DNA of 35,326 nucleotides from Acidobacteriota bacterium (GTDB lineage Bacteria; Acidobacteriota; Vicinamibacteria; Vicinamibacterales; UBA8438), in assembly GCA_021296485.1 (NCBI GenBank), contig JAGWAI010000028.1:8142-43467 (forward strand). Direction: 5' to 3'. The notes beneath the pieces were generated by a model, which had not been told where the DNA came from, searched no databases, and worked only from the letters and a program-made list of their open reading frames with translations. Below, piece after piece: positions 85 to 27,816 of the stretch. The position numbers and the translations under genes were made by a program. Every line of letters begins with the position of its first letter. Position 1 is the first letter of the stretch.

Positions 85-120
85 CACAGGAGATTGGCCC
101 GAACGGTAGGAGAACACGGC

Positions 121-2247
121 TTGCCACTCGGAATTCCCGCATCGTGGCGTAATGCCGCTGCGGCGGCGCTGGTTGTTGCAGTAGGCGGGTCTTCCGCCGC
201 GGCCCAGCCGGCTTCCTCTCCGTCGTATACTGCGGCCCAGGCTGCCGCCGGGCGCGACGCCTACGCCAACAACTGCGCGGAGTGCCACCTCGACAACCTG
301 CGCGGCGGCTTCGGGCCGGCGCTGGCAGGTTCGAATTTCACTTCGGTCTGGGGCGGGCAGCCAGTGCGGGCGCTGTTCGAGCAGACCCGCGGCACGATGC
401 CGCCGGGCGCCGAGGCTTCCCTCGGCGACCCCGTCTACCTGGACATCGTCGCCTACATCCTGCAGGCGAATGGCCACGCCGCCGGAGCCGAACCGCTACG
501 CACCGACTCGGCGCTGGCGATTGCCCCCGATGCCGCAGGTCCGGGCCACGGTAACGTAGCGGCGGCGGATCAGGGGCTCGCCCCTCCCAGCGGCGGCCCG
601 GTTGCGCTCGTGAACCGCGTGGTCGAATCGTACAGCCCGGTGACCGACGCGCTGCTGGAGAATCCGCCGGACGAGGAATGGCTTTCGTGGCGCCGCACAC
701 CCCTTGGCCACGGCTACAGTCCGCTCGATCAGATCACGCCCGAGAACGTCGGCGAGTTGCGCATCGCCTGGGTGTGGACCATGGAAGCCGGACGCGTGCA
801 AACGGCGCCGCTGGTGCACGACGGCGTGCTCTTCCTAGCGAACCCCGGCAATGTGCTGCAGGCGCTCGACGCGCGCACCGGCGACATCATCTGGCAGTAC
901 CGCCGCGAGTATCCGGACGGCCGCCGGTCCAACCTCATGCGGTCGATCGCGCTCTATCAGGACAAGGTCTACATGACCACGGCCGACCTGTCGGTCGTGG
1001 CCGTCGACGCGCGGACGGGCAAGCTTGTGTGGGAAACGAAGAAGGCCAACGAGGACGACGGCTTCTACCACACCGCCGGTCCCGTCATCGCGGACGGCGT
1101 GGTCATCAGCGGCATCACCGGCTGCGGGCAGTTCACCCAGGCCGGGTGCTTCATCACCGGCCACGACGCGGAAACGGGTGAGGAACTGTGGCGCACGTCG
1201 ACGATCGCCCAGCCGGGCGAGCCGGGCGGCGACACCTGGGGCGACCTGCCGCGCGGGGTGCGCGGGGGCGCCGAGACCTGGATTCCAGGCACCTACGATC
1301 CGGACCTGGACCTGTACTTCGTAGGCACAGCCCAAGCGAAACCGTGGGCGGCGGTAAGCCGCGGCCTCACGACCGCGGACGCCGTGCTGTATTCGAACTC
1401 CACGCTGGCGCTCGATCCGCGCACCGGCGAAATCGTCTGGTACTTCCAGCACGTGCCGGGCGAATCGCTCGATCTCGACACCGTCTTCGAGCGCGTGCTG
1501 ATCGACATCGACGGCGAGCGGCTACTGTTCACCGTGGGCAAGGACGGACTGCTGTGGAAGCTGGCGCGAGATTACGGCGCATTCCGCGGCGTCCGCGAAA
1601 CGGTGTTCCAGAACGTCTTCGAGTCGATCGACACCGCGACCGGCCGGGTCACCTACCGCCCCGACATCATCGAGATGCAGTTCGGCCAGCCGATACTGTC
1701 GTGCCCGGCATACTACGGGGGCCACAACTGGCCGGCCTCGGCGTACAGTCCGGCAACGTCGGCGCTGATCGTGCCGCTCAACCAGAACCACTGCTCCGAG
1801 ATGGCGGCGCGCAGCATCGAGCTGGAGGAAGGCTCGGGTTCGTCCACCGGATCGGACGTTCGCTTCTTCGAGCGGGAGGGCAGCAACGGCACGTTCGGTC
1901 GCCTGAGCGCTTACGACGTCAGGACGCTGGAAGAACTGTGGCGCCACGAGCAGCGGGCATCGATTTCCACCGGCGTCGTGGTCACCGGCTCGGGCCTGGC
2001 GTTCGCCGGCGACGTCGACCGCTACTTCAAGGCGTTCGACGTACGGACCGGCGACGTGCTCTGGCAGACGCGGCTGGGCAACTCCGCGTCCGGCTTCACG
2101 ATTACCTACGAGCTCGACGGCCGGCAATACGTTGCCGTGCCGACGGAGACCGGGCCGTTCACCAGCATCCGGCGCTACGTGAGCCCGGACGTCTATGCGC
2201 CGACCAGCGGCGGAGCGCTCTATGTCTTCGCGCTGCCCGAGCGCTAG
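121..2247 (+). CDS. Cytochrome c-fused PQQ-dependent alcohol dehydrogenase-like quinoprotein
   Basis: This is a secreted quinohaemoprotein of 708 residues. The TTG at 121 is chosen because AGGAGA lies 7 bases upstream and a signal peptide ending near SSAAAQ follows at once; the TTG at 94 in the same frame has its purine box directly against it. Domains are a signal peptide (about 1-29), a class I cytochrome c with CAECH at 52-56 and a likely methionine ligand in GTMPPG, then an eight-bladed PQQ propeller from about residue 185 to the end, with repeated A-x-D-x-x-T-G-x-x-x-W blade motifs. The family oxidises alcohols in the periplasm and passes electrons to the haem. The segment GESLDLDT matches the catalytic Asp loop and has a second Asp two residues on. 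The usual GTGN calcium-ligand motif reads GTAQ here, so the metal site is atypical. The substrate is unknown. The TAG stop lies inside the terminal repeat of the next element. Confidence 0.9.
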
Positions 2248-2389: not shown

Positions 2390-2416
2390 ATTACACCGCA
2401 AACAGGGAGCACTGCC

Positions 2417-4704: not shown

Positions 4705-6732
4705 CTACGGCAGGCTGAGGGCAACGAGCTCCGCGTTGCCCGCGCCGCCCACCGCCACGGCAATATACTGCCGCCCGCCGTGCAGATAGGTCATCGGCTG
4801 GGCCGCCCCGTTGCCGTCCAGGCGAACGATATGCACGAGATCTCCCGTCGTCTTGTCCAGGACGAAGATCAGCTGCCGGAGCATGTCGGCGTCCGCCCAT
4901 TCGGCCCACGCGGGGATCTCGAGACCGCCGGGAGTTGTCATAAACGTCACGCTCACGAAGAGCAGCGTTCCGGTCACCAGCACGTGCGTGTGCTGGGGTC
5001 CGTTGCCCAACGGCGGGAGGTCCAGGTCGCGTAGCAGCGGGTGATTCAACGGTCCGTTGCCCAGCGCGCTCCCCCACCGCTGCTCGCCCTCATTCATATC
5101 GATTGCCGTCACGTGCGAGTAGGGCGGCCTAAATATGGACAGTCCGTCGACCCGCAGATCAGTGGCCCCGAGGCCGCCGCCCGAAACGTACCGAAAATCC
5201 GTTTGCGCCGGGTTCCCGCGCCGCAGCCGCGCGACCGACGGCATCATCACGGACGGCACGAACAGCCACCCGGCCTCCGGGTCAAAGGCGCCGCCGCCCC
5301 ACCGCGCCCCGCCCCACACGCCCGGCAGGAACGCCGTCCCCTCCAGTGACGGCGGCGTGAACAGCGGGCCGTGGCGGTAGGTGCGGAGCCGTTCCAATGC
5401 CCGGCGCCGCAGCTCCGGCGTGAAGTCGATGAGATTCTCTTCGACGGCCCCCTGGAGCGCGAACGCCGGCGGCCGCGTGGGAAACGGTTGCGTCTGCGCA
5501 TACCACTCACCCGGCACGTCGCCCTGCGGCACCGGCCGTTCCTCGATGGGCCATACCGGCTCGCCCGTCTCCCGGTCGAACGTATAGATGAAGCCCTGCT
5601 TGCTGACGACCATCACGGCCTTGATATCCCGGCCGCCAACGAGGATTTCGCCGAGCACCGGCTCGGCCGGCAGGTCGTAGTCCCACAGTCCGTGGTGCAC
5701 CGTCTGGAAATGCCACACCCGGATGCCCGATGCGGCGTCGAGACAGATCACGCTCTCGGCAAAGAGGTTGTTCCCGGGCCTGTGCCCACCGTAGTAGTCG
5801 CTGCTCGGCGTGGAGCTGGCGAGATAGACGTAGCCGAGATCGGGGTCGTAGGTCATGCCGGCCCACACGTTCGTGTTGCCGCCCTGCGCCGCGGAGCCGT
5901 TGTGCCAGGTGTCGTAGCCGAAATCGTCGCCCTCCGGGACCAGGTTGAACGTCCAGCGCCGCACGCCGGTGCGGACGTCGAAGGCCTGCACTGAACCGGG
6001 CGGCGCTGCGTCGGGCTGCCGTACGCCGTCGGCCTGTGCCGTGCCCACGATTACCACGTCGCCGGCGACGACGGGACGCCGGGCAACGTAGTTAGTGCCG
6101 CGCCGCGCCTGCCGTACGTCCACAGCCAGGTCCACCTTGCCGCGGTTGCCGAACGCCGGATCGGGCCGGCCGGTGTCGATATCGATCGACAGCAGGTAAG
6201 CATCAACGGTGCCGATCAGCAGCCTTCGGTCCACCCCATCGCTCCAGTACGCCATGCCGCGGTGCGAAAAGCTGCCGTTGGCGGGTCGCGTTGCGAAGCC
6301 CTTGTAGCTCTCGGGGTCATGCATCCAGAGGGTGCGCCCTGTTCCTGGATCGAGCGCAGCGACCAGCCCCAGCGTAGTGACCGTGTACAGCACGCCGTCG
6401 ATGACCAGCGGCGTGTCCTGGTACTTCGACGCCCGCCAGCGGGGGTCCAACTGCTCGATGTCCCGATCGGGAGACGGCCACCGCCACGCAATCCCAAGCT
6501 GATCGACGTTCTCCGGCGTGATCTGATCGAGCGGCGAGTACTTGGTGCCCAGCAGGTCGCCGCTGAACTGCCGCCAGTCGCCGCCTGCGGGCGCGCGATG
6601 ATCCTGCCCAATTGCAATCTGGGCCGCCAGCACGATGGCTCCCGTCGTGAGCGCCAGCCCGGCCGCTCGACGCACGCTGCCCCGCAGCCGTGCTTCCGGA
6701 CCCGATCCGTGCAGTCGGTAGCGCGCGCCCAT
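4705..6732 (-). CDS. PQQ-dependent dehydrogenase, glucose-dehydrogenase-like, secreted
   Basis: This quinoprotein has 675 residues from the ATG at 6732, which has GGGGGCAGG just upstream; an in-frame ATG at 6762 has no ribosome site. A signal peptide with a long basic n-region and a hydrophobic core (LALTTGAIVLAAQIAIGQ) is followed directly by the propeller (GDWRQFSGDLLGTKYSPLDQ). Several W-docking repeats follow. The motif VHHGLWDYDLP holds the Asp (about residue 351) that aligns with the proton-abstracting Asp466 of E. coli Gcd, and SKQGFIYTFDR, 27 residues later, holds the Lys equivalent to Lys493. The segments GEWYAQTQPFPTRPP and IDFTPELR are typical of this family. There is no N-terminal five-helix membrane domain as in Gcd and no fused haem, so a separate acceptor is expected. 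The substrate is a sugar or polyol by family, otherwise unknown. Confidence 0.88.
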   Translation of the reverse strand: MGARYRLHGSGPEARLRGSVRRAAGLALTTGAIVLAAQIAIGQDHRAPAGGDWRQFSGDLLGTKYSPLDQITPENVDQLGIAWRWPSPDRDIEQLDPRWRASKYQDTPLVIDGVLYTVTTLGLVAALDPGTGRTLWMHDPESYKGFATRPANGSFSHRGMAYWSDGVDRRLLIGTVDAYLLSIDIDTGRPDPAFGNRGKVDLAVDVRQARRGTNYVARRPVVAGDVVIVGTAQADGVRQPDAAPPGSVQAFDVRTGVRRWTFNLVPEGDDFGYDTWHNGSAAQGGNTNVWAGMTYDPDLGYVYLASSTPSSDYYGGHRPGNNLFAESVICLDAASGIRVWHFQTVHHGLWDYDLPAEPVLGEILVGGRDIKAVMVVSKQGFIYTFDRETGEPVWPIEERPVPQGDVPGEWYAQTQPFPTRPPAFALQGAVEENLIDFTPELRRRALERLRTYRHGPLFTPPSLEGTAFLPGVWGGARWGGGAFDPEAGWLFVPSVMMPSVARLRRGNPAQTDFRYVSGGGLGATDLRVDGLSIFRPPYSHVTAIDMNEGEQRWGSALGNGPLNHPLLRDLDLPPLGNGPQHTHVLVTGTLLFVSVTFMTTPGGLEIPAWAEWADADMLRQLIFVLDKTTGDLVHIVRLDGNGAAQPMTYLHGGRQYIAVAVGGAGNAELVALSLP

Positions 6733-6786
6733 TGCCTGCCCCCGCCGTCTCCTGCTTCGCATGTAGTTGACAAGCCGCCCGGTTGC

Positions 6787-9900: not shown

Positions 9901-10024
9901 CTTCAACCTGATGAACGTGAATGTGGCGCTGGCCGTATCCGACGCCTTCGGCGGGAGCTGGCCGCGACCGACGTCGACCGTGCCCGGCCGCACGGCCCGC
10001 CTCGGCGCCAAGGTGGATTGGTAA
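6983..10024 (+). CDS. TonB-dependent receptor with N-terminal carboxypeptidase-regulatory-like domain
   Basis: This outer-membrane transporter has 1013 residues. The GTG at 6983 is chosen because AGGAGGG (6969-6975) lies 7 bases upstream and a signal peptide (about 1-29, LLPSVAAGQ) begins there; about 48 open codons upstream look non-coding. An Ig-like carboxypeptidase-regulatory domain (about 33-118, IAGSVTDSTGAVLPGVTVE, GAYRVVALPPGTYSV) precedes a plug with EETVTVTGASPVVD and LLFDGVMINN. A large beta-barrel follows, ending in AKVDW with an aromatic C-terminal residue. This is the Oar-like/SusC-related architecture common in Acidobacteriota, used for energy-driven uptake of large or complex ligands. 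The ligand is unknown. It is divergent from a quinoprotein and convergent with the ankyrin-cytochrome gene, with only 6 bases between the stops. Confidence 0.93.
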   Translation: MANRLLFVALTVMLAFAGTILLPSVAAGQAASTASIAGSVTDSTGAVLPGVTVEAASPALIEGVRTAVTDGQGAYRVVALPPGTYSVTFTLPGFRTLRREGIELSTGFTAPANAELAVGAVEETVTVTGASPVVDVQNTQTDNVIRRETLQALPTSQSLQGFATLTPGVVTDNVDIGGNRHERANLRMAGRPFQRLLFDGVMINNLGGNGDGQYGSYSPNVQAMQEVALGLGTQSAEHSNGGVNINYIPREGSNAFSGLVDVAFGNGDTQWSNLNDDFRARGVSSAAEARKLWDYALNAGGPLARDRLWFFAAARWWGGQEYAPGNYYNKLDDIYIGDPNSGVVNYEPDLERRAFTDNHFADVSGRLTWQVARDHKLSWGYSFQKSCVCNLFTVFNTAPEANANANFDPVHLTNANWTFPASNRLLFEAGFSYFHDQNTHKPDANTSSRDVGVREALGTEHVRPGYFYNGRSFSALPPGVDYFSHSIFKQAQARASVSHVTGTNSFKAGVQMLFVHEDRQSNYGDAASPVIGDAPVFYFFAGGRPVLIRQIASPHLNLSDFRDVGLYVQDQLTIDRLTINGGVRYDSFRATIPQQTRPAGPYVPAIPISAIGSDALPSYNALVPRVGAAYDLFGDGTTAIKASFGKYVSSVGSNLLLNYHPALRISTIANRTWSDANMNFVPDCDLTSAAQNGECGALDNSLFGQARSVTATDPALLNEGRGHNWQATVALEQQIIEGWGIEVAFDRTWYGDFQATDNRAVTPADYDPYCVTAPTHSQLPNGGGYEICGLYDINPSMFGRVDNYVTLQDNFGDRSQVYNGVRINTEGRFRDGTLLGGGFSIGRTWDTNCTVIDSPQQELYCDSGPPLGQTIQFKLFGTYTLPGDIQTSAAFRVIEGAPINAVVSYSNAQIASSLGRDLSACGTRTGAACTARVDVPLYAEDDTLFEPRLVMLDWRFSKIFRIGGVRVQGLVDFFNLMNVNVALAVSDAFGGSWPRPTSTVPGRTARLGAKVDW

Positions 10025-10030
10025 GGTCCG

Positions 10031-11938
10031 CTAGCCGGGCGGTTGGGCCGTGATGCGAATCCGGTCCAGCCGCCTGGCCTCCGCCGGCAGTTCCGAGGCG
10101 CCGGGCGGCATGCCGTTCCTCTTCAGCAGATAGCTGACCACGTCGATGTTCTGTTGCGGGCTGACGCTGCCTGGCGCATCCCACGGCATCGCGCGTGACA
10201 CCGTGAGGAACAGGTCGGCCACGGTCGCGGCGTCCCAGCGCTGCTCGAAAGAGACGCCCACCAGGCTCGGGACGACCTCGCTGCCGTCGCCCTGCAACGC
10301 GCCGTCGCCGCTCAGGTCGCGGCGGTGGCACTTGCGGCACCGGCGCCGGTAGACCTGTTCCCCGCGGTCGGCCTGCTCCGCGTTGTAGACGCCTGACCAC
10401 ACCGTCAACGCGGCCGGCTGGTCTGCGGCGGCGGCGGTGCTCCGGGCCGCCAGGTCGTCGAGCGTTACCGGCAGGCCGCGCGCGCCCATCGCCTCCCGCA
10501 GCATCTCGGCGATCTGCGGCGATTCCTTGTAGGTCCCCTGCCGGAAGACGCCCGCCGCGATGTGCAGCGGCGTCCAGCCGGCCTGATTCACCAGGGTGAA
10601 CGTGTCCGCCCCGTGGTCGATAACGAGCTGCACGACCGACGGCGCCAGCCTGTAAACCGCGCCGTGCAACGCCGTCTCGCCGTTGGCGTCGACCGCGTTG
10701 ATGTCACCACCCAGATCGAGAACCACCTGCATGCACTCGAACGCTTCGGCCTCGGTGCCGCCGTCCTCGCCGGGAGATGCAATTCCGACGCCGGCGGCAA
10801 CCATGAGCAGCGTCGTGTCTTCTTCGGTCTTGAGCGCCGGATCGGCTCCCAGCTCCAGCAGCACGCGTACCAGCGGCGCATCGGCCACCTTGGCCGCCAT
10901 GAGCAGCGGCGTGGCGCCAATCCAGCTGTAGCCCTTCCGAAAGCGCGTGTTCGGATCCTCGATCATGCGCGCGTTGACGTCCGCGCCGCGCGCGACCATC
11001 TGCCTGACGAACTCCAGGTCTTCGACGTTGCCGCGGTTGACCGGGCCCGGCGGGTTGTAGCCGTACGGCGGCTTCCGCACCCAGGAGATGGCGTGCAGCG
11101 CCGTGTAGCCGATTTCGGTGTCGTCCGCCACGCCCTGGTTGGGATCGAGCCCCTGGTCGACGAGATACAGGGCGACCTCGTAGTGCGCGTTCGTCGCGGC
11201 CAGGATTACGGCGCCGGTGCCGTCCGGCAGCTCGTCGTGGATGTCGGCGCCGGACTCGAGCAGCGCCCGAACAACTTCGACGTGGCCGGCCCGCGCCGCG
11301 AATAGCAGCGCCGTGAATCCACCGATGGGCGAACGCCGGAACGACCGTGGAACCTCGGTCTCCGTGCGGGCTCCGACGTCCGCGCCGGCCTCGATCAACG
11401 TCCTTACGGCCGCGGCGTGCCCCTCCCCCGCCGCCCACATGAGCGCTGTCTGGCCGCCTCGCAGCGCCGCGTCGACATCCGCACCGTGGTCCAGCAGCAC
11501 GCGTATGGCGTCGACGCTCCCGCTGCGCGCGACCGTCATCAACGGCGTTTCGCCCTCTCCAATCGCCGCGTCGGGTTCCGCGCCGGCGTCCAGCAGCACC
11601 TCGAGCATCGCCGCACCGGCATTCGTGGCGGCCAGCCGCACAGGCGTGATGCCTAACGCGGTGGCGGCGCCCACATCCGCGCCGGCGCGCAGCAGCAGCC
11701 GGGCCGCGTCGGCATCATCGAGGTGGGCCGCCCAGTGCAGCGCCGTCATGCCGCCGGGCTCGGCGCCATTGACGTCGATATCCGGCTGCCGCAGGAGCGC
11801 GCTGACGGCATCGAGATCGGCGTTCCGAACTACATCTACCAGCGGCGGCGATTGCGCTGCCGCGCCGGCGCCGAAAATCACCAGCGCCACGGACAGGAGC
11901 AAAACGGTTCCAGGGTGATGCGAGTTGCGCTCGGTCAT
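10031..11938 (-). CDS. Secreted ankyrin-repeat protein fused to a C-terminal cytochrome c
   Basis: The product has 635 residues from the ATG at 11938; an in-frame ATG at 11962 adds eight residues, and neither has a strong ribosome site. A signal peptide (VLLLSVALVIFGAGAAAQ) is followed by about ten ankyrin repeats (roughly 30-480) with recurrent GxTALHWAA, LLLRAGADV and LLDHGADVDA patterns. The final 110 residues are a class I cytochrome c: CRKCH at 534-538, and a likely methionine ligand in SRAMPWDAPG. The context is a divergent DUF1592-DUF1552 pair, an arrangement repeated in the opposite orientation at 22253-27816. Ankyrin repeats bind other proteins. Pseudomonas AnkB, an ankyrin protein in the cell envelope, supports the catalase KatB, so a helper or electron-transfer role for the neighbouring haem proteins is a reasonable inference. 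Confidence 0.88.
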   Translation of the reverse strand: MTERNSHHPGTVLLLSVALVIFGAGAAAQSPPLVDVVRNADLDAVSALLRQPDIDVNGAEPGGMTALHWAAHLDDADAARLLLRAGADVGAATALGITPVRLAATNAGAAMLEVLLDAGAEPDAAIGEGETPLMTVARSGSVDAIRVLLDHGADVDAALRGGQTALMWAAGEGHAAAVRTLIEAGADVGARTETEVPRSFRRSPIGGFTALLFAARAGHVEVVRALLESGADIHDELPDGTGAVILAATNAHYEVALYLVDQGLDPNQGVADDTEIGYTALHAISWVRKPPYGYNPPGPVNRGNVEDLEFVRQMVARGADVNARMIEDPNTRFRKGYSWIGATPLLMAAKVADAPLVRVLLELGADPALKTEEDTTLLMVAAGVGIASPGEDGGTEAEAFECMQVVLDLGGDINAVDANGETALHGAVYRLAPSVVQLVIDHGADTFTLVNQAGWTPLHIAAGVFRQGTYKESPQIAEMLREAMGARGLPVTLDDLAARSTAAAADQPAALTVWSGVYNAEQADRGEQVYRRRCRKCHRRDLSGDGALQGDGSEVVPSLVGVSFEQRWDAATVADLFLTVSRAMPWDAPGSVSPQQNIDVVSYLLKRNGMPPGASELPAEARRLDRIRITAQPPG

Positions 11939-11961
11939 CTTCGTTGCGGCGCGCTGCCGCA

Positions 11962-12056: not shown

Positions 12057-14495
12057 ATGCGGACCAAGACCTCTCTGGCGGCGCTCGCCGGCATCCTCTC
12101 GATTGCCGGATATGCACCAGCAGCGGCCGGGCAACAGGCCGCCGCGGGCGACGATCCTGATCGCGGCGCACTGATCAGCCGCTACTGCGTAGGCTGTCAC
12201 AACGAACGGCTCCGGACCGCAGATCTCCTGCTCGACCGTGCCGACATCACCGATATCGGCGCCGACGCCCAGCTCTGGGAAAACGTCGTGCGCAAGCTGC
12301 GCGCCGGCATGATGCCGCCCGCCGGGCGGCCGCGGCCGGATCAAGCGCAGCGAGACGGCCTGGTGGCCTGGCTCGAGTCCGAGCTCGACCAGGCTGCAGT
12401 GCGCCATCCGAACCCGGGCAGGGTCGACGGCCTGCGCCGCCTGAGCCGCACCGAGTACCGCAACGCCGTCCGCGACCTGATTGCGCTCGAAGTCGACGTT
12501 GCCGAACTGCTGCCCGCGGACGACTCGAGCGGCGGGTTCGACAACGCAAGTCTCGGAGGACTCGATCCGGGACGCATGGAAGCGTATCTTCTGGCGGCGC
12601 GAAAGGTGAGCCGCCTGGCGGTCGGTGCAGCCGTAAGACCAACCTCTCATACGTTCGTCGTACCCTCGGATCTCACGCAGAACCGCCACATCGACGGCCT
12701 GCCGTTCGGCACCCGGGGCGGCGCCGTGGTGCCGTTCACGTTCCCCGGCAGCGGCGCATACGACATCGATATCATGCTTGGCCGGGATTTCCTGCAGTTG
12801 GGACTGGTGGGACCGGCCGGTATCTCCGAACCGCACGACCTGGTAGTGACCCTCGACGGTGAGATCGTGCACACGGAGAGCCTTGAGCCCCCAAAGATGC
12901 CTTCCAGGCAGCCGGCGGGTGACGACGCGCAGCCCGACCTCTACGCATCAAACGAGGACGACACGGGCGGCGGACCGGACGTCAGCGTCCGCCTGTCCGT
13001 GCGTGCGGGCAAGCGCGCGCTCGGCGTGGCGTTCGTCAACAAGGGCTACAGGCTGGTGGAGCAACACCAGCAGCCCTTCGAGCGGCCCCACGTTGCCCAG
13101 GGCGAGGACCAGCGGCCCGAGCCGGTGATAGAGACCATCGAGATCACCGGGCCGTTCGAGACGAGCGGGTCACGCGCCGAAACGGCGAGCCGGCGGCGCA
13201 TCTTCAGCTGCCGGCCCGCGAGCCGCCTCGAGGAAACGGACTGCGCCCAGGCCATTCTCATGACGCTGGCGCGGCGGGCGTACCGGCGACCGGTGACCGG
13301 GTCGGACCTGGAGGACCTGCTCGCCTTCTACAGGGAGGGATACGCGGAGGGCCAGTCTGCGCCCGAGGGCGGCTTCGAGGCGGGCATCCACCGGGCGCTC
13401 AGGCGGCTGCTTGCGCATCCGGAATTCCTGCTGCGCATCGAGCGCGATCCCGAGACCGCCACCGGCCCGTATCGCATCAGCGATATCGAGCTGGCGTCGC
13501 GGCTGTCGTTCTTCCTGTGGAGCAGCATCCCCGACGACGAACTGCTCGACGCCGCGAGCCGCGGGATTCTCAGCGAGCCGGAGGTGCTCGAACAGCAGGT
13601 GCGCCGCATGCTCGCCGACACGCGGTCGAGCGCACTCATCGAGAACTTCGCGGCGCAGTGGCTGTACCTGCGTAATCTGCCCGAGACCACCCCCGACGCC
13701 TGGCTGTTTCCAGACTTCGACGACAACCTGCGCCGCTCGATGCGGCGCGAGACCGAATTGTTCTTCGAAAGCATCATCCGTGAGGACCGCAGCGTGATCG
13801 ATCTCCTCGCGGCGGACTATACCTTCGTCGACGAGCGGCTCGCCCGGCACTACGGCATGCCCCACGTACGCGGCAGCCGCTTCCGGCGCGTGGCGTTGGA
13901 CCCCGACAGCGGGCGCGGCGGCCTGCTCGGGCACGCCAGCATTCTCACGGTAACGTCGTACGCGACCCGCACCTCACCGGTGCTGCGCGGCAAGTGGGTC
14001 CTGGAGAACATCCTGGGAACTCCGCCGCCTCCGCCACCCGCGAACGTGCCGCCGCTCGAAGACGCGGGCCGCGGACAGGCGCTTTCGATGCGCGAACGGG
14101 TGGCCCAGCATCGCGCGAATCCCGTGTGCGCCAGCTGCCACGCGCTCATGGATCCAATCGGCCTGTCGCTGGAGAACTTCGACGGGATCGGCCGCTGGAG
14201 GACACGCACCGAGGGCTTTGCCCCGCTTGACGTATCGGGTAATCTGCCCGACGGGTCGGCCTACGATGGTGTGGCCGGCCTCAAGACGACGCTGTTGAAC
14301 CGACCGGAGCTGTTCGTGACCACAGTCAGCGAGAAACTGCTTGCGTACGCCCTCGGCCGCGCCGTTGAATACTACGATGCGCCCGCGGTGCGCCGGACCG
14401 TGCGCGACGCCGAACAGCACGACTATCGGTTCTCGTCGCTCATTCTGGGGATCGTTCGCAGCACGCCGTTTCAGATGAGAGGCCAGCAGTCATGA
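12057..14495 (+). CDS. DUF1592-type dihaem cytochrome protein (PSD-domain protein), copy A
   Basis: The product is a secreted 812-residue protein with the full planctomycete/acidobacterial domain string: signal peptide (about 1-25), cytochrome c-like PSD1 domain with CVGCH at 44-48 and GMMPP, DUF1587 (LSRTEYRNAVRDL), DUF1595 (LARRAYRRPVT), DUF1592 (ASRLSFFLWSSIPDDELLD), DUF1588 (SYATRTSPVLRGKWVLEN and the polyproline stretch), a second haem site CASCH at 691-695 inside NPVCASCHALMDPIGL, and DUF1585 at the C terminus. The reaction is unknown for the whole family; two covalent haems imply an electron-transfer or redox role outside the cytoplasm. Its last four bases (ATGA) overlap the start of the DUF1552 gene, so translation is coupled. 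Confidence 0.93.
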   Translation: MRTKTSLAALAGILSIAGYAPAAAGQQAAAGDDPDRGALISRYCVGCHNERLRTADLLLDRADITDIGADAQLWENVVRKLRAGMMPPAGRPRPDQAQRDGLVAWLESELDQAAVRHPNPGRVDGLRRLSRTEYRNAVRDLIALEVDVAELLPADDSSGGFDNASLGGLDPGRMEAYLLAARKVSRLAVGAAVRPTSHTFVVPSDLTQNRHIDGLPFGTRGGAVVPFTFPGSGAYDIDIMLGRDFLQLGLVGPAGISEPHDLVVTLDGEIVHTESLEPPKMPSRQPAGDDAQPDLYASNEDDTGGGPDVSVRLSVRAGKRALGVAFVNKGYRLVEQHQQPFERPHVAQGEDQRPEPVIETIEITGPFETSGSRAETASRRRIFSCRPASRLEETDCAQAILMTLARRAYRRPVTGSDLEDLLAFYREGYAEGQSAPEGGFEAGIHRALRRLLAHPEFLLRIERDPETATGPYRISDIELASRLSFFLWSSIPDDELLDAASRGILSEPEVLEQQVRRMLADTRSSALIENFAAQWLYLRNLPETTPDAWLFPDFDDNLRRSMRRETELFFESIIREDRSVIDLLAADYTFVDERLARHYGMPHVRGSRFRRVALDPDSGRGGLLGHASILTVTSYATRTSPVLRGKWVLENILGTPPPPPPANVPPLEDAGRGQALSMRERVAQHRANPVCASCHALMDPIGLSLENFDGIGRWRTRTEGFAPLDVSGNLPDGSAYDGVAGLKTTLLNRPELFVTTVSEKLLAYALGRAVEYYDAPAVRRTVRDAEQHDYRFSSLILGIVRSTPFQMRGQQS

Positions 14496-15862
14496 TCATT
14501 CGCAAGATAGCGTTGCCGCGGCGGACGTTCCTGCGCGGAGCGGGCGCCGCATTGGCGTTGCCGCTGCTCGACGCGATGGTGCCGGCGCTCACCGCCGCTG
14601 CCAGGACCGCGGCCAACCCGGTTCGCCGGTTGGGCTTCGTTTACTTTCCGCACGGTTCGGTTACGTGGAGCAAGGAACAGAACCTGTGGACGCCGGCCCG
14701 CGAGGGCAAGATCGAGGAGCTGCCGCCCATATTGAGTTCACTCGGCCCATATCGCGATCAGGTGACCGTGGTCACGAACCTGGAGATGAAGAATGCCCAG
14801 GGCAACGGGCGGGACGGCAACGGCGAGCACACGCGCGCGAACGCGACGTTCCTGAGCGCGGCGCGCCCCAAGATGACCGTGCGCTCGGACGTGCGGCTGG
14901 CCACGACGGTCGATCAGATTGCGGCCCGCGAGCTGTGCAAGGACACGCGGTTGCCGTCGCTGGAACTGGCCCTGGATTCGAACTTCCTCGTGGGCAACTG
15001 CGACGACGGCTACAACTGCGTATATGTGAATACGATTGCGTGGTCATCGCCCACCACGCCGCTGCCGGCGGAGACGAATCCGCGGCGCGTGTTCGAGCGC
15101 CTGTTCGGTGAGGGCGGCAGCGAGGCGGAAATGCAGGCCGAAGCGCGAGCTGACCGCAGCATCCTCGATGCAATCACCGAGGATCTGGCGCAACTGCGCG
15201 CAACGCTCGGTCCCGAAGACCGCGGCCGCATGAGCGAGTACCTCGACACCGTGCGCGAGGTCGAGCGGCGGATCCGGTTGGCGGAGCGGCAAACGGACCA
15301 GCCCGGCCTGACGCTGCCCGAGCAACCAGTCGGCGTACCGGACAGCTATGACGAACATGCAAAGCTGATGCTCGACTTGCAGGTGCTGGCCTATCAGGCC
15401 GACATCACGCGGGTCTTCACGATGATGGTCGGCCGGGAACAAAACGCACGCCCCTTCCCCTGGATCGGTGTCAACGACGGACACCACGCCATCTCGCATC
15501 ACCAGGACAATCCGGAGAAAATAGCCGCGCTCTCCAAGATCAACGCCTATCAGGTTGAGCTGTTCGCCTATCTGCTGCAGAAACTGCACGCGACGCCGGA
15601 CGGTCCGGGCAACCTCCTTGACCATTCGATGCTGCTCTACGGCAGCGGCATATCCAACGGAAACCTCCACGACCACAAGAACCTGCCGATTCTGGTGGCG
15701 GGCGGCGGGGCGGGACGGCTCAAGGGCGGCCGCCACATAAAGTACGCAGAGCAGACGCCGATGGCGAATCTGCTCGTCGGGCTGCTGGACCGGGCGGGCG
15801 TCCACGTGGACCGCTTCGGCGACAGCACGGGTCGGATCGACCTCGAACCCCTTTCACTCTAG
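14492..15862 (+). CDS. DUF1552 protein with Tat signal, copy A
   Basis: The product has 456 residues and starts with a twin-arginine signal (PRRTFLRGAGAALALPLLDA), so it is exported folded. The body carries the DUF1552 landmarks: FVYFPHGSVTW, the pattern YVNTIAWSSPTTPLP, a His-rich segment GVNDGHHAISHHQDNPEK, and LLYGSGISNGNLHDHKNLPI near the C terminus. The domain is related in outline to DUF1501 and alkaline-phosphatase/sulfatase-like proteins, and the Asp/His clusters could bind metal, but no activity has been assigned as far as I know. It is encoded directly after a DUF1592 cytochrome with a 4-base overlap, the usual pairing, so the two probably act together. Confidence 0.93.
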   Translation: MIIRKIALPRRTFLRGAGAALALPLLDAMVPALTAAARTAANPVRRLGFVYFPHGSVTWSKEQNLWTPAREGKIEELPPILSSLGPYRDQVTVVTNLEMKNAQGNGRDGNGEHTRANATFLSAARPKMTVRSDVRLATTVDQIAARELCKDTRLPSLELALDSNFLVGNCDDGYNCVYVNTIAWSSPTTPLPAETNPRRVFERLFGEGGSEAEMQAEARADRSILDAITEDLAQLRATLGPEDRGRMSEYLDTVREVERRIRLAERQTDQPGLTLPEQPVGVPDSYDEHAKLMLDLQVLAYQADITRVFTMMVGREQNARPFPWIGVNDGHHAISHHQDNPEKIAALSKINAYQVELFAYLLQKLHATPDGPGNLLDHSMLLYGSGISNGNLHDHKNLPILVAGGGAGRLKGGRHIKYAEQTPMANLLVGLLDRAGVHVDRFGDSTGRIDLEPLSL

Positions 15863-18554: not shown

Positions 18555-18575
18555 TCCGCGTTGAGGACCTTGCCA

Positions 18576-20822: not shown

Positions 20823-22256
20823 ATGCTGACGCGATTCCGATTCTTCCTGCATGCCGTACTCGCGCCGGCCGCGCTGTGTCTCGCCGCGTCCGCGTGCGGA
20901 CCGGCGCCGCCCGCCACGCAGACCGGCACTGCCGCACCGGACGCCGCCGAGACGAACACCGTGGTGTTCGAACAGGTCACTGTCGTTCCCATGGACCGCG
21001 AGCGGGTGCTGCCGAACCGGATGGTGGTCGTCCACAACGGACTGATCGCGGAGATCGACGCCGCCGGCATGCCGGCGCCGGCGGGCGCCGTCCGCGTCGA
21101 CGGGCGCGGCAAGTTTCTCATGCCGGCGCTCGCCGAGATGCACGCGCATCTGCTTCCTGAGGACGTTGCCCCCTATGTCGGCGGCCGCTTTGCGACGCCG
21201 GAGCAGGCCATCGAGCGCGTGCTGCTCATGTTCGTACTGAACGGCGTCGGCACCGTCCGGAACGCGCACGGCCACGCACCGCACATCGCCCTGCGGGAGC
21301 GCGTGGCCGGCGGGGAACTGACTGGACCGACGATTATCACGTCCGGACCGTCGTTCAGAAACGAACACGTGGCGTCGACTGCGGCGGCCGAGCGATTCGT
21401 TGCGGATCACGTTGCGCTCGGGTACGACTTCATCAAGGTCTATCCCACCATCGCCGGCGGCATCGACGACGACGCCGATGTGTGGGAGGCAATGACACGC
21501 GCCGCGAACGAGGCCGGCGTGCCGTTCGGCGGGCATGTGCCTACCGGGCTGGGGCTGCGCCGTGTGCTCGAGTCCGGGATGCGGACCATCGACCACATCG
21601 ACGGGTACCTGGAGGCCGCCGCGCGTCCGGGTGCGCCCGAACCGCAGATCTTCGGGACCAATCTCGCGGGGCACGTGGACGAGTCGCGGTTCGCGGCGCT
21701 GGCCGGGGAGACGCGGGCCGCGGGCGCGTGGATCGTGCCGACGCAGAGCCTGCTGGAGGTCCAGCGGGGTCCGGACGATCCGGATGTGATGGCAACCTGG
21801 CCCGGTATGGAATACGTCTCGCCCGAGGTGCTGCAACGGTGGATCGACGCGAAGCGGCGCACCATGGCCGCGCAGCCGCTCGAGACGCGCCAGGAGTATC
21901 TCGCCCTGCGGCGGCGGCTCCTGAAAGCCCTGTACGACGGCGGAGTGCGGTTCGTGCAGGGCTCCGACTCGCCCCAGACGTGGACCCCGCCCGGTTTTGC
22001 GGCGCACAGGGAGCTTGCGGCCCTGGTGGCGTCGGGGCTGACGCCGTTTCAGGCGCTGGAAACCGGCACCCGCAACGTGGCGGTGTTCCTGAACGCGGAG
22101 GACCGCACCGGCACCGTCGAAGTGGGCAAGCGCGCGGACCTGCTGCTGGTCGACGCCAATCCGCTGGAGGACGTGGCCAACGCGCATGAGATCACCGGCG
22201 TCATGCTCAACGGCCGCTGGCTGCTCCGCGAAGAAATCGAAGCCCTACTTCGTTAG
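20823..22256 (+). CDS. Amidohydrolase family lipoprotein
   Basis: The product has 477 residues from the ATG at 20823; a GTG at 20802 in the same frame overlaps the previous stop (GTGA) and is an alternative start. The N terminus is a lipoprotein signal with lipobox LAASAC (Cys25). The TIM-barrel hydrolase shows the metal set of the imidazolonepropionase/prolidase-like subfamily: H-x-H in EMHAHL (107 and 109), a Lys in DFIKVYP, His in GGHVP, His in IDHIDGY and the catalytic Asp in QGSDSPQ. The C-terminal small beta domain (GTVEVGKRADLLLVDANPLED) is complete. Such enzymes cleave amide, lactam or peptide-like bonds; the substrate is not predictable. It is the last gene of the plus-strand run, and its TAG overlaps the TAA of the convergent gene. 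Confidence 0.9.
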   Translation: MLTRFRFFLHAVLAPAALCLAASACGPAPPATQTGTAAPDAAETNTVVFEQVTVVPMDRERVLPNRMVVVHNGLIAEIDAAGMPAPAGAVRVDGRGKFLMPALAEMHAHLLPEDVAPYVGGRFATPEQAIERVLLMFVLNGVGTVRNAHGHAPHIALRERVAGGELTGPTIITSGPSFRNEHVASTAAAERFVADHVALGYDFIKVYPTIAGGIDDDADVWEAMTRAANEAGVPFGGHVPTGLGLRRVLESGMRTIDHIDGYLEAAARPGAPEPQIFGTNLAGHVDESRFAALAGETRAAGAWIVPTQSLLEVQRGPDDPDVMATWPGMEYVSPEVLQRWIDAKRRTMAAQPLETRQEYLALRRRLLKALYDGGVRFVQGSDSPQTWTPPGFAAHRELAALVASGLTPFQALETGTRNVAVFLNAEDRTGTVEVGKRADLLLVDANPLEDVANAHEITGVMLNGRWLLREEIEALLR

Positions 22257-23599
22257 ACGTCCAACACGCCGGCGATTCTACCCGTGCTGTCGCCGAGCTT
22301 CTCGAGCGGGAACCCGAGCTTCTCAAGAATGGTCAGGTGCAGGTTCGTAAGCGGCTGCTTCGGGTAGCGGACGTAGCGCCCGCCGCGGATCCCGGTCCCC
22401 TTGCCCCCGACCAGCATGATCGGCAAATCGTCGTGAAAATGGGTATTGCTGTCGCTGATGCCGGTTCCGTACAGGAACAGCGTGTGGTCGAGCAGCGTGC
22501 CGTCGCCCTCCGGGGTCTCCGCGAGCTTCGCGACCAGGTGGGCGAACTGCTGCATGTGGTACTCGTTGATCTTGCTCAATCGCTCGAGCTTCGCCGGCTC
22601 ATCCTGGTGGTGGGACACCGGATGGTGCGAATCGGAAACGCCAATCTCGGGATAGGGCCGGTTGCTGACCTCCCTGCCCATCATGAACGTGCAGATACGG
22701 GTCATGTCGGTCTGATACGCCAGCGCCAGCAGGTCCAGCAGCAGTCTGGCATGCTCCGCGTAGTCGCTAGGAATACCGACCGGCTGTTCGACCACGGGCA
22801 GCGCTTCGAGGCCCTGACGCTGGGCCAGTTGCAGGCGCCGCTCGATGTCCCGAATCGCGTCGAAATACTCTGCAAGCTTGACCTGGTCCTCCGGGCCAAC
22901 GGCCTTCCGCAGGCCTTCCGCATCACCACTGACGAAATCGAGGATGCTGCGGTCGATGCTCATGCGCGCCCGCCGCGCGTCCGCATCGGTGCTGCCGGCG
23001 GTGCCGAAGAGCCGCTCGAACACGGCCCGGGGGTCGTTTTCTACCGGCAGCGGCGTGGTGGGCGTGCGCCAGGCGATGGTGTTGGTGTACGCGCAACTCA
23101 GGCCGCCGTCGCACGATCCCAGCAATCCAGGGTCTTCCATGCCCAGCTCGAGCGATGCGAGCTGGGTGTCCCGCGCCAGTTCGGCGGCGGCAATCTGGTC
23201 CATCGACATCGCAGCGCGCACCTGCGCGCTGCGATCCTCGAACGGCGTGCCGGTGAGGAACGTGCCGGAGGACTTGATGTGATCACCGCCGCGCAGGAGC
23301 TTGGCCGATTCGGTCGCCAGCCCGCCGCACAGGACCGCCCTGTCCTTGAACGCTTCCAGCGGGCGCAGGATCGGCGGCGCCGTCGTGAGGGGTCCCTCGG
23401 CAAGGTCGCGCGGATACCAGTACGGCATGGACATGCCGTTGGGCACGTAAAACACGCCCAGCCGGCGTACCGGCGCCGCGGCGGTCCTGGCCATGGCCGT
23501 GAGCGCCGGCACCATGCCGTCGAGCAACGGCAGGGCCAGCGTGGCGCCGATCCCGCGCAAAACGGTCCGGCGAGGTATGTGTTTCCGGGTGACAATCAT
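22253..23599 (-). CDS. DUF1552 protein with Tat signal, copy B
   Basis: The product has 448 residues from the ATG at 23599, with GAGGGAGACGAG just upstream; the frame stays open to 23749, but that part overlaps the end of the preceding gene and shows no signal. A twin-arginine signal (PRRTVLRGIGATLALPLLD) is followed by the DUF1552 landmarks VFYVPNGMSMPYWYP, YTNTIAWRTPTTPLP, GVSDSHHPVSHHQDEPAK and LYGTGISDSNTHFHDDLPI. It is clearly paralogous to the gene at 14492 and keeps the same position behind a DUF1592 cytochrome, with a 38-base gap here instead of an overlap. Confidence 0.93.
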   Translation of the reverse strand: MIVTRKHIPRRTVLRGIGATLALPLLDGMVPALTAMARTAAAPVRRLGVFYVPNGMSMPYWYPRDLAEGPLTTAPPILRPLEAFKDRAVLCGGLATESAKLLRGGDHIKSSGTFLTGTPFEDRSAQVRAAMSMDQIAAAELARDTQLASLELGMEDPGLLGSCDGGLSCAYTNTIAWRTPTTPLPVENDPRAVFERLFGTAGSTDADARRARMSIDRSILDFVSGDAEGLRKAVGPEDQVKLAEYFDAIRDIERRLQLAQRQGLEALPVVEQPVGIPSDYAEHARLLLDLLALAYQTDMTRICTFMMGREVSNRPYPEIGVSDSHHPVSHHQDEPAKLERLSKINEYHMQQFAHLVAKLAETPEGDGTLLDHTLFLYGTGISDSNTHFHDDLPIMLVGGKGTGIRGGRYVRYPKQPLTNLHLTILEKLGFPLEKLGDSTGRIAGVLDV

Positions 23600-23637: not shown

Positions 23638-26049
23638 CTATCCGCCCGCGGGCGCCGCATTCGAGTCCGGTCGGGCTGCACGGACCTGTGACGCCCGCCG
23701 CATCTGGAACGGCGCGCTCTCCACGATACCCAGCACTAGCGCCGACCACCGGTAGTCGTTGGCGGCGAGGTCACGGACCAGGTCTCGCACCGTCGGTGCA
23801 TCCGTGTAGCGCAGGCCGCGGCCCAGGCCATACGTAAGGAGCTTCTCGACCACCGTTCGCACGAACGCATCCTGGCCATGGCCGAGCAGCGCCTCCCGAA
23901 ACGCACGCGGGCCGTCGACCGGCCGGCCGGCGAGCGTGATGCTTGCGTCAATCGGCGCTCCGCCATCGGTCTCTCGCCAGCGGCCGACCGCATCGTAGTG
24001 CTCCAGCGCGAATCCGAGGACGTCCATCCGATTGTGACAGCTCGCGCACACCGGGTTGCTGCGATGCTGCTCCATCCGTTCCCGGAGCGATGCCGGCCTG
24101 GCGCCGGGCGCATTCTCCTCCAGCGGCGGCACGTTCGGCGGCGGCGGCGGCGGCGGTGAGCCGAGCAGGTTCTCCAGGATCCACTTGCCGCGCAGGACCA
24201 CCGACGTGCGGTCCGGGTACGACGTCACCGTCAGCACGCTGCCATGTCCCAGAAGCCCCATTCTCCTGTCGTCGGACAGCGCCACGCGCCGCAGGTGGCT
24301 GCCGTATACGCCGTCGATGCCGTAGTGCCGCGCCAGACGCTCGTTCAGATACGTATAGTCGGCCCGCAACAGCTCCGGAATCGGGCGATCTTCGCGCACC
24401 TGGCTGGCGAAGAAGAGCTGCGTCTCGCGCGCCATGGCGTCCCGCAGCGTAGTGTCGTAGCCGCGAAAGAGAGCGCTGTCCGGCTCGTGGGAGTGGATGT
24501 TGCGCACCTGCAGCCACTGCTCCACGAAGTCGTCCATGAACCGCGTGGCGCGACGGTCCGCCAGCATGCGGCTGACCTGCTCTGCCAGGATGGACGCGTC
24601 CGCCAGCCGGCCGCGCACCGCCAGATCCAGCAGCTCGTCATCCGGGATGCTCTTCCACAGAAAGAACGACAACCGCGACGCGAACTCCAGATCGCTCAAC
24701 CGATAGACGGCGCCCGTATCGACCCGCTCCTCTTCCATTCGAATGAGAAACTTCGGCGACGACAGCATCGCCTCCACCGCACGCTCGATGCCGGTATCGA
24801 ACGACCCCTCGCTGTGGCCCGCAGCATAGAGCTCGAGCAGCGGCTGCACATCGACGTCCGTCACGGGACGCCTGTAGGCGCGCCGTGCGAGGGTGCTGAT
24901 TATGGTGCGCGCGCAGGGCTCGTCGTCGGCGGCGCGGCTGGGATAGCACGTGAAGATCTGCCGGCGGCTGGGCGTGTGCTCCGGCACCCGGCCATCGTAG
25001 GGACCGGCGATCTGCAGCTTGTCGATGCCTATCCGCGTGCCGGTTGCCGCGGCCGAAGGCAAAGTGCGCGTGAACGCCGCGGCGACCGTGCGGGTGCCCG
25101 CTCCGACGGGCACACGGACTTCAAGGTGGTCGTCGGCCGTCAGGCGATAGGTATGGATCCGCTGGCCCTCCAGATCGTCCTCCTCGACGCCGATTATCGT
25201 GCCCGGGTCCAGCCCGCTGAACTTGCCGCCGATCGTGAAGCGCTTGATCAGCGCGTGATCCACGCGCAGCTCGATTGCATGCTCGTCTTCTTCAATCCCC
25301 TCGATGCCGTATGACACCGAGTTGCGCTGCAGGCGGATCTTGAAGAGATACTCGCCGTCGAGGGGGAAGGTGTGCCGGACGGCCAGACCGCCCTGCGTTG
25401 CGAACGGCATGCGGCTGCCCATCCGCGCGTCCTGCCGGGCCCGGGCGGGGACGGAATAGAAATGCGACGCGGGCCGATTGTCCGGACTCGCGAGAGCCAA
25501 CCGGCTGATCTTCGTGGCTGCCGACATGTACCGCGCCATCAGAGACGGCGTGATCGCCAGGACGTCGGCATTGTTGTCGAACCCGAAACCGGCGAGGTCG
25601 CTGGGCAGGTAGTCCGCGCCATCGATCTCGAGCGCCAGCAGGTCGCGCACGGCGTTGACGTATTCGGTGCGGTTCAGGCGGCGGGACGCCACCCGCCCGG
25701 GATCCGGCGGCGCCGCTTCGTCCAACCTCCGTTCCAGCGCGGTGACGAAGCTGTTAACTGCGGCCGCGTCGGGTCGGCGCCGGCCCTCCGGCGGCATCTC
25801 CCCGTCGCGCAGCTTGCGGACTACCTTTTCGAGAACTTCGACGTTCGCCGCAACGTCTCCAATGTCCAGGGACTGCAACGAGAGACCGCCCGTCCGCATG
25901 CGATCGCTATGGCAGGCGACGCAGTATTGGTCGAGCAGAACACGCTGCGGAGGAGGGGATTGATCCGGCTCCTGCGCGGCGACCGCGTCCAGTGCCGCCG
26001 CGCCGAGCACGCACCCGGCCGCAACGGCTGCGATGCAGCTCCGTATCAT
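23638..26049 (-). CDS. DUF1592-type dihaem cytochrome protein (PSD-domain protein), copy B
   Basis: The product is a secreted 803-residue protein from the ATG at 26049; the open frame extends to 26202, but the signal peptide (about 1-25, ALDAVAAQ) begins here. Haem sites are CVACH at 43-47 and CASCH at 668-672. In between are DUF1587 (LNRTEYVNAVRDLLALEID), DUF1595 (LARRAYRRPVTDVD), DUF1592 (ASRLSFFLWKSIPDDELLD), DUF1588 (SYPDRTSVVLRGKWILEN and a polyproline run) and DUF1585 at the end. It is a paralogue of the gene at 12057 with the same domain order. It is divergent from an ankyrin gene and is followed by DUF1552, so the three-gene layout of the first unit is repeated in the opposite orientation. 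Confidence 0.93.
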   Translation of the reverse strand: MIRSCIAAVAAGCVLGAAALDAVAAQEPDQSPPPQRVLLDQYCVACHSDRMRTGGLSLQSLDIGDVAANVEVLEKVVRKLRDGEMPPEGRRRPDAAAVNSFVTALERRLDEAAPPDPGRVASRRLNRTEYVNAVRDLLALEIDGADYLPSDLAGFGFDNNADVLAITPSLMARYMSAATKISRLALASPDNRPASHFYSVPARARQDARMGSRMPFATQGGLAVRHTFPLDGEYLFKIRLQRNSVSYGIEGIEEDEHAIELRVDHALIKRFTIGGKFSGLDPGTIIGVEEDDLEGQRIHTYRLTADDHLEVRVPVGAGTRTVAAAFTRTLPSAAATGTRIGIDKLQIAGPYDGRVPEHTPSRRQIFTCYPSRAADDEPCARTIISTLARRAYRRPVTDVDVQPLLELYAAGHSEGSFDTGIERAVEAMLSSPKFLIRMEEERVDTGAVYRLSDLEFASRLSFFLWKSIPDDELLDLAVRGRLADASILAEQVSRMLADRRATRFMDDFVEQWLQVRNIHSHEPDSALFRGYDTTLRDAMARETQLFFASQVREDRPIPELLRADYTYLNERLARHYGIDGVYGSHLRRVALSDDRRMGLLGHGSVLTVTSYPDRTSVVLRGKWILENLLGSPPPPPPPNVPPLEENAPGARPASLRERMEQHRSNPVCASCHNRMDVLGFALEHYDAVGRWRETDGGAPIDASITLAGRPVDGPRAFREALLGHGQDAFVRTVVEKLLTYGLGRGLRYTDAPTVRDLVRDLAANDYRWSALVLGIVESAPFQMRRASQVRAARPDSNAAPAGG

Positions 26050-26214: not shown

Positions 26215-27816
26215 GTGAATACGGCATTCGGCGGGCTGACGCTGGTGCTGGCCGTCGTCTCACTGAGCGCAGCGTCGCTCGCCGCGCGCGGCGAAGACGA
26301 TCTGCGGCTTGTCGACGCGGCAGCGGCACAGGACGCCGCATCCGTGCGGGCGCTGCTGCGCGCGGGCGCCGACGTAAACGCCGCCCGCGCGGACGGCGCG
26401 ACCGCGCTGCTATTCACGACCCACTGGAACGATCTGGCGCTGTCCGAGCTTCTGCTGCGCGCCGGCGCGGACCCCAACGCGGCCGACGATCACGGCGTCA
26501 CGCCGCTCGCGCGGGCCACCGAGAACGCCAGTCCCGAGATGGTCGAGTTGCTGCTGAACGCCGGTGCGAACCCGGATACAGCCGAGATCCTCAGCGGATT
26601 GACCCCCCTCATGACCGCTGTCAGAACAGGGCACCGCGGCGTCGTCAGCGCTCTGTTGCAGCACGGTGCGAATGTCAACGCGGCCACGGTCAAGACGCGC
26701 AACACTCCCCTGATGTGGGCCGTCTCCGGCGGTGATACGGGCCTGACGCGACTGCTCGTCGACGCGGGCGCCGACGTTCACGTTTCGACGGCCAGAGGAC
26801 TGACGCTCCTGATGCTCGCCGCCCGCAACGGCGATGTCGAGATGGCGCGGACGCTGCTGGCCGCGGGAATCGACGCGAACGATACCGGGTCGGCCGGCAT
26901 GCACGCTCTGCCCTTTACCGTTGTCGCGGGTCAGGCCGAATTCGCCTTGTTCCTGCTCGGCCAGGGCGCCGACCCGGACGGCGCCCTGGCCGGCATTCGG
27001 GCGATGCATGCGGCCGCGGGCAATGTTGGCCCCTGGCTGGCCGAATGGAACCAGCAGCACGCGCTGCTGCGGCTGCCCGGCGGCGTGCCGCCGGCTCAAC
27101 GGCCGGCACTGGTCGAAGCACTCGTCGCGAGCGGCGCCGATCCGAATGCGCGCATCGCGGCTACCGGTGTCGACCAGGACTATCTGGCAAGACCCCGGCG
27201 GGGTGCATTTCAGACCTACTCGTGCGGCACCGGCGATCTAAATGGCGCAACGCCGCTGTGGGTCGCGGCACGCGAGGCCAATGGAAACCCACGCGGCGGG
27301 GCTGCGCCGGTGGATAGCGACTCGGACCCGAGGTTGAAGGTGATACGTGCGCTCCTGGCCGCGGGGGCCAACCACGCCGTCGCCACCGAAGACGGGACGA
27401 CGCCGCTCATGGCCGCGGCCGGCCTCGGACAATGCACCAACGATTACACGCTGCGGCGCGGTATCCGGTCGCCCGGCGCAGAGGCGGCGGTAGCGGCGCT
27501 GCTCGATGCGGGCGCGGCTATCGATACTGTGAACGAGGCGGACTTCACGGCGCTGCACGGCGCCGCGTTCCGGGGCCTCAACGAAGTGATCCGGATTCTG
27601 GTCGACCGTGGCGCCGACATCGATGCGCGCGACTTCAGAGGCCGCACACCCTACCGGCTCGCGCAGGGGAGCAAGCAGTCCTTCTACTTTCAGGAGTACC
27701 CGGAGACAGCGGAATTCGTTGCCGGCCTCGGCGCCGACACCACAATCGGGCTGGCCGGCGGCGTGCAGGAACGCTTGCGAGACGTCGCCGTCGAGGACGC
27801 AATCTCCCCTCGCTGA
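26215..27816 (+). CDS. Secreted ankyrin-repeat protein without cytochrome domain
   Basis: The product has 533 residues from the GTG at 26215, which has AAGGAGA (26201-26207) 7 bases upstream; the frame is open far upstream but overlaps the DUF1592 gene. The signal peptide is LTLVLAVVSLSAASLAARG. Ankyrin repeats fill the rest, about eleven, with recurrent LLRAGADVNAARADGATALL, NTPLMWAVSGGDTGLTRLL and FTALHGAAFRGLNEVIRILV. The last repeat runs into a short tail (FYFQEYPETAEFVAGLGADT) and the protein stops where the 10031-11938 paralogue continues into its cytochrome c. It is divergent from DUF1592 copy B. A chaperone-like or docking role for that pair is inferred from the repeated gene order. 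Confidence 0.88.
   Translation: MNTAFGGLTLVLAVVSLSAASLAARGEDDLRLVDAAAAQDAASVRALLRAGADVNAARADGATALLFTTHWNDLALSELLLRAGADPNAADDHGVTPLARATENASPEMVELLLNAGANPDTAEILSGLTPLMTAVRTGHRGVVSALLQHGANVNAATVKTRNTPLMWAVSGGDTGLTRLLVDAGADVHVSTARGLTLLMLAARNGDVEMARTLLAAGIDANDTGSAGMHALPFTVVAGQAEFALFLLGQGADPDGALAGIRAMHAAAGNVGPWLAEWNQQHALLRLPGGVPPAQRPALVEALVASGADPNARIAATGVDQDYLARPRRGAFQTYSCGTGDLNGATPLWVAAREANGNPRGGAAPVDSDSDPRLKVIRALLAAGANHAVATEDGTTPLMAAAGLGQCTNDYTLRRGIRSPGAEAAVAALLDAGAAIDTVNEADFTALHGAAFRGLNEVIRILVDRGADIDARDFRGRTPYRLAQGSKQSFYFQEYPETAEFVAGLGADTTIGLAGGVQERLRDVAVEDAISPR

Follow-up and report, generated by a model that had tools for sequence, protein, structure and literature searches.

A predicted exported ankyrin-repeat protein fused to a class I cytochrome c at a DUF1592–DUF1552 locus of Acidobacteriota

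Why should a bacterial ankyrin-repeat protein end in a haem-binding domain, and what would the repeats be for? The question is raised by a 35,326-nucleotide stretch of an acidobacterial contig (JAGWAI010000028.1; referred to here as the window), in which a gene for such a protein is found divergent from a gene of the DUF1592 type, and a second ankyrin gene is found divergent from another one (Table 1). The earlier note on this DNA had described the gene as the fusion of a protein-binding solenoid to an electron carrier, a description that the domain architecture supports.

Table 1. Features of the window discussed in the text (positions are those of the window)
Feature	Coordinates	Strand	Basis or remark
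Quinoprotein whose N-terminal cytochrome c belongs to the broad family of the fused domain	94..2247	+	Pfam, alignment
PQQ-type quinoprotein dehydrogenase, no fused haem	4705..6762	-	two genes from the fusion gene
Ankyrin-cytochrome c fusion gene	10031..11938	-	635 aa + stop
Class I cytochrome c domain of the fusion, residues 519-635	10034..10384	-	dN/dS 0.19, Pfam, PDB profile and fold matches
Predicted distal axial Met584 (AMPW)	10187..10189	-	invariant in alignments
Haem attachment motif CRKCH, residues 534-538	10325..10339	-	near the N terminus of the cytochrome domain
Linker of the fusion, residues 496-518	10385..10453	-	weak constraint, dN/dS 0.59
Ankyrin-repeat solenoid of the fusion, residues 34-495	10454..11839	-	Pfam, structure model, PDB matches
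Predicted Sec signal peptide of the fusion protein, MTERN...GAGAAA/Q (slash: cleavage)	11855..11938	-	judged by eye
DUF1587/1592/1588/1585/1595 protein (DUF1592a), two CxxCH, PSCyt/PSD type	12057..14495	+	divergent from the fusion gene
DUF1552a (HXXSHH) protein, Tat-like signal RRTFLRG	14492..15862	+	Pfam, sequence
Second DUF1552 protein (DUF1552b), Tat-like signal RRTVLRG	22253..23599	-	Pfam, sequence
Second DUF1592 protein (DUF1592b), two CxxCH	23638..26049	-	divergent from ANKb
Second ankyrin protein (ANKb), 533 aa, no haem domain, different subfamily	26215..27816	+	Pfam, tree

Domain architecture and conservation of the fusion protein

The longest open reading frame at the fusion locus extends from 10031 to 11962 on the minus strand (643 aa); 11938 is the better start, since the only upstream methionine of a relative that is 83% identical aligns there. 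Several ankyrin families are matched (Pfam; 186 bits for Ank_2), and the ankyrin part has ankyrin matches in PDB and is modelled by AlphaFold2 with a pLDDT above 90 in most blocks. The C-terminal domain matches Cytochrome_CBB3 (PF13442; 34.1 bits, cut-off 27) and Cytochrom_C (PF00034; 21.4 bits, cut-off 21.3), and its set of axial ligands is complete (His538 and Met584). In an alignment of six related cytochrome domains this methionine is invariant together with the CxxCH, so that the CRKCH of the fusion is more than a chance occurrence of the motif. A profile of these related domains matches the solved structures of QcrC, CcoP and cytochrome c6 (PDB).

Since the cytochrome part has a pLDDT below 50 in the AlphaFold2 model of the full-length protein, we modelled this domain alone from the six sequences (mean pLDDT 65). 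The helices of the resulting model follow the order found in class I cytochromes. Almost all fold matches of this model (cytochrome cL among them) are c-type cytochromes, with Z up to 9.0 on realignment; in Foldseek the probability is near 1, with an E-value of 0.03 at best and weaker values for the other matches. The motif, the methionine, the profile and the moderate-confidence fold all identify the C-terminus of the fusion as a class I cytochrome c. The earlier note had placed such a domain there, with CRKCH at residues 534-538, and had named the lack of a cytochrome c fold as what would speak against it; the exact position, the Pfam matches, the ligands and the domain model all agree with its assignment. 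Genes for cytochrome c assembly are found in the source genome, and the domain is presumably loaded with haem. The protein as a whole would thus be an exported (periplasmic) ankyrin solenoid, followed by a short flexible linker and a mono-haem class I cytochrome c, with secretion predicted from the signal peptide.

The fusion is not confined to one sequence, which was the other circumstance that the note had held against it. Beside the source genome (2.38 Mb, 88% complete), the genus has another genome (G003) with the full-length fusion, 83% identical; this is the state seen in the nearest public relative, a Vicinamibacteria MAG (contig JAJEEU010000071.1). In the comparison of the two fusions that are 83% identical, the ankyrin part has a dN/dS of 0.165 and the cytochrome one of 0.19, whereas the value is 0.59 in the linker and exceeds 1 in the signal peptide: both domains are under purifying selection, and the linker that joins them is loose. 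An assembly or frame artefact is ruled out by the single open frame, the conservation in the second genome and the codon constraint. In the genus's third genome, an assembly that is 71% complete, no close counterpart of the fusion locus was seen; incompleteness may account for this.

A carboxypeptidase-regulatory/Vgb-lyase-like gene elsewhere in the window (18561-20805, plus strand) consists of two overlapping frames, split near 19150; its counterpart at 1046-3331 of the nearest public relative is uninterrupted over 762 codons and includes two CxxCH. The split reflects either decay or a sequence error.

Ankyrin proteins as regular members of DUF1592–DUF1552 loci

An ankyrin gene of the same family adjoins 14 out of 17 DUF1592 genes in the source genome (the remaining three are two divergent members and one that is cut by the end of its contig), and nearly all ankyrin genes of this genome belong to the DUF1592-linked family. 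In G003, 19 out of 19 ankyrin genes have a DUF1592 gene no more than 3 kb away, and in a genome of another genus of the same family (G013) 22 out of 23 do, against a chance expectation of about 1.5. The same neighbourhood of ankyrin, DUF1592 and DUF1552 is also observed at loci that bear the labels Acidobacteriota and Verrucomicrobiota, and at some with a few other labels. The ankyrin is a conserved third member of DUF1592–DUF1552 loci, and the module has been duplicated many times in these genomes. Three contigs that bear this ankyrin family have public MAG titles that look doubtful (Akkermansia muciniphila for L126, Klebsiella pneumoniae for L141 and Acidimicrobiia for L146); L126 and L146 carry the whole triad.

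The pairwise distances of the three proteins are correlated, with r of 0.83-0.91 over ten paralogous triads of the source genome (0.86 for ankyrin and DUF1592) and 0.81-0.89 over 46 triads. Ankyrin, DUF1592 and DUF1552 diversify as a unit, which fits cognate binding and is also expected from duplication en bloc. The link of the ankyrin to DUF1592/DUF1552 that had been suggested from the window is borne out by this co-diversification and by the regular adjacency. We know of no activity for either DUF family, and a search by sequence for relatives of DUF1592 or DUF1552 in PDB found none.

ANKb contains no CxxCH at all and, as the earlier note had observed, stops just before the position of the cytochrome. 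What had been described as a haem domain absent from the paralogue needs to be turned around: the absence is real, but it is the default state, and the haem domain was gained in the fusion. ANKb is only 37% identical to the fusion ankyrin and belongs to another subfamily; the nearest paralogue in the genome (57% identical) is encoded on contig C102 and is also without a haem domain, as are the other ankyrin genes of the source genome. As nearly all relatives are without this domain, its loss from the paralogue is ruled out, and the ankyrin without haem is the ancestral and usual state. Beside this nearest paralogue, the DUF1592 gene (9036-11406 of locus L069, on contig C102) is split over two frames, and its G003 ortholog is intact.

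Separate cytochromes and the origin of the fusion

A small cytochrome c is encoded directly behind the ankyrin gene, and often convergent with it, at several further loci; its motif is mostly CGYCH. Small cytochromes were found within 3 kb of an ankyrin gene in nine out of 36 cases in five genomes (versus 1.4 expected), a count that includes the fused pair and the orthologous pair of G013. In the ankyrin tree as in the cytochrome tree, one group of six loci with an ankyrin and a small cytochrome forms a clade, and the two clades match. The majority of the module's ankyrins, on the other hand, have no adjoining cytochrome, so the haem is optional. We also observed an operon-like arrangement in G362 (locus L228, 5521-12565), where two cytochrome c genes in succession share one strand with the genes for DUF1592, DUF1552 and the ankyrin. 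The third genome of the genus encodes a tandem di-domain cytochrome with two CATCH motifs (locus L187, 5248-6300), which is related to a stand-alone cytochrome on contig C95 of the window's genome.

The orthologous locus of G013 has DUF1552 and DUF1592 on one strand, and the ankyrin followed by a cytochrome on the other. Here the cytochrome is a separate gene with its own signal peptide and a CRKCH motif, 144 nt downstream of the ankyrin gene and past its stop codon, and it is sister to the fused cytochromes in the cytochrome tree (support 96/95). The separate gene at this locus indicates that the fusion joined two neighbouring genes, as a gain in the window's genus. The G013 cytochrome gene (locus L186) is flanked by direct 24-base copies (5583-5606 and 6175-6198), a repeat with no other copy in the G013 genome; the arrangement resembles what the insertion or duplication of a cassette would leave.

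Fused genes were found in at least three of 193 genomes of the class (the window's genome, G003 and G124), and no further fusion was found among the candidates scored in 396 genomes drawn from the phylum; these counts are lower bounds, with 10 or 5 candidates scored per genome. The fusion in G124, which belongs to a different family of the order, has the motif CAVCH, and its ankyrin and cytochrome are placed elsewhere in both trees; two fusion events are therefore counted, and by these trees the fusion appears to have arisen at least twice independently. As to whether fused forms always adjoin DUF1592 or PQQ genes, a check proposed in the note, both fusions with a readable neighbourhood do, and the G124 gene is at a contig end. 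Another candidate, L128 (match at 33-621), was rejected as a fusion: its ankyrin frame runs into a stop codon, beyond which another gene, presumably HtpG, can be read. No relatives were found in viral contigs.

Possible roles of the ankyrin part and comparison with known systems

We propose that the ankyrin part could be a module-specific docking scaffold in the periplasm, which would bind its cognate DUF1592 protein (with two CxxCH), the DUF1552 protein or both, and would hold the fused cytochrome beside the DUF1592 haems. Electrons released by the module could then pass to the fused cytochrome and on towards the respiratory chain; the reverse direction, in which the cytochrome would give electrons to the DUF1592 haems, seems less likely. 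At sister loci this role may fall to the separate small cytochrome whose gene closely follows that of the ankyrin, or to the general cytochrome pool. Docking, haem loading and electron transfer are all conjectural parts of this proposal, an ankyrin that tethers its own electron shuttle to a cognate DUF1592/DUF1552 pair, and we give it an even chance of being right.

The main rival is a helper role: the ankyrin would be a maturation or stabilising partner of the haem-bearing DUF1592 protein, and the fused cytochrome, instead of being a shuttle, would be either another client or a redox aid to haem ligation. Some bacterial ankyrins, including one that has been described as periplasmic, are known to raise either the activity of an adjacent haem enzyme or its haem content (PMC10294975, PMC11442138), and the ankyrin modules here adjoin a di-CxxCH DUF1592 protein mostly without any cytochrome. 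But c-type haems are attached by a dedicated assembly system, whose genes are present in the genome, and an intact fused His/Met cytochrome, together with the recurrent separate cytochromes beside ankyrin genes, fits an electron carrier better; we regard the helper role as rather unlikely. Less probable again is that the fusion serves the neighbouring PQQ-type dehydrogenase, with the ankyrin docking on the quinoprotein and the haem taking its electrons. Cytochrome cL, which is among the fold matches, is the electron acceptor of methanol dehydrogenase; a PQQ-type gene is the second gene from the fusion, beyond a gene of the TonB-dependent receptor-like kind, another adjoins ANKb, and contig C48 has ankyrins beside a PQQ gene without DUF1592. 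The linkage to DUF1592 (19/19 and 22/23) is far more regular than that to PQQ genes, however, and no PQQ gene adjoins the G013 locus or most of the triads.

It is also conceivable that two adjacent genes for secreted proteins were joined neutrally, leaving the cytochrome to act as a free shuttle whose tether is accidental. The unfused pair of G013 shows how a deletion could join such genes, and fused genes are few (at least three), but two species have retained the fusion, under constraint in both domains, and it arose at least twice; we consider the neutral reading unlikely, much on a level with the PQQ reading and if anything slightly below it. Lastly, the ankyrin might be a 'eukaryotic-like' host-interaction factor. 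Ankyrins of sponge-associated bacteria are often interpreted in this way, and a survey of sponge microbiomes read the high ankyrin content of Acidobacteriota of the class Luteitaleia as a symbiosis trait (PMC8163846). That class probably corresponds to the lineage of the window. But nearly all ankyrins of the genomes analysed here belong to the DUF1592-linked family and have signal peptides, relatives occur in records whose titles suggest free-living sources, and one of these ankyrins bears an electron-transfer domain, so a role in host interaction is very improbable.

The fusion and the module suggest that these ankyrins serve electron transfer and not host interaction. The surprise lies less in the single fusion than in the regular ankyrin–DUF1592–DUF1552 module, which the fusion marks as a likely redox system. 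The fusion serves as a 'Rosetta stone' that ties the exported ankyrin, DUF1592 and DUF1552 families to periplasmic electron transfer, and it makes the role of the many DUF1592/DUF1552 copies in Acidobacteriota testable. We suggest, a little more tentatively than the shuttle itself, that exported ankyrins are a regular third part of a massively duplicated DUF1592–DUF1552 redox system in Acidobacteriota and Verrucomicrobiota, as module-specific docking scaffolds for cytochromes c that were fused to them at least twice, and that much of the reported ankyrin enrichment in this lineage of sponge bacteria reflects this redox system instead of host manipulation. The ankyrins of this lineage should accordingly not be tallied as host-interaction factors without caution.

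In freshwater Verrucomicrobia, DUF1592-type PSCyt/PSD proteins have been described beside a family of unknown genes, in expanded number and with unknown function, and these proteins and their neighbours were predicted to be periplasmic or cytoplasmic (PMC5615132). Those loci resemble the present ones in having DUF1592 with DUF1552 neighbours in many copies; they differ in that the main text of that paper has no ankyrin, whereas here an exported ankyrin is regular, with a cytochrome joined to one of its copies. Our literature search, with most subscription journals outside its coverage, returned no paper naming ankyrin with DUF1592 or DUF1552. Ankyrins functionally tied to a haem enzyme are found in AnkB-KatB of Pseudomonas, AnkB-CatB of Xanthomonas and Cj1386-KatA of Campylobacter, in which, for example, AnkB helps the catalase KatB and Cj1386 helps KatA (PMC10294975, PMC11442138). 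The fusion gene adjoins a di-CxxCH DUF1592 gene, whose product would be the candidate client. The ankyrin of AnkB-KatB is periplasmic, as predicted for the fusion ankyrin; in those systems, however, as they are described, the partner is a catalase and there is no cytochrome domain. Fusions or pairs of PQQ dehydrogenases and cytochromes c share with the present protein a mono-haem class I cytochrome, covalently attached or adjacent, which in them serves as acceptor. In such pairs the cytochrome is fused to the dehydrogenase or encoded directly beside its gene, and the cytochrome of the window's fusion is neither; its fusion partner is a binding scaffold and not a dehydrogenase.
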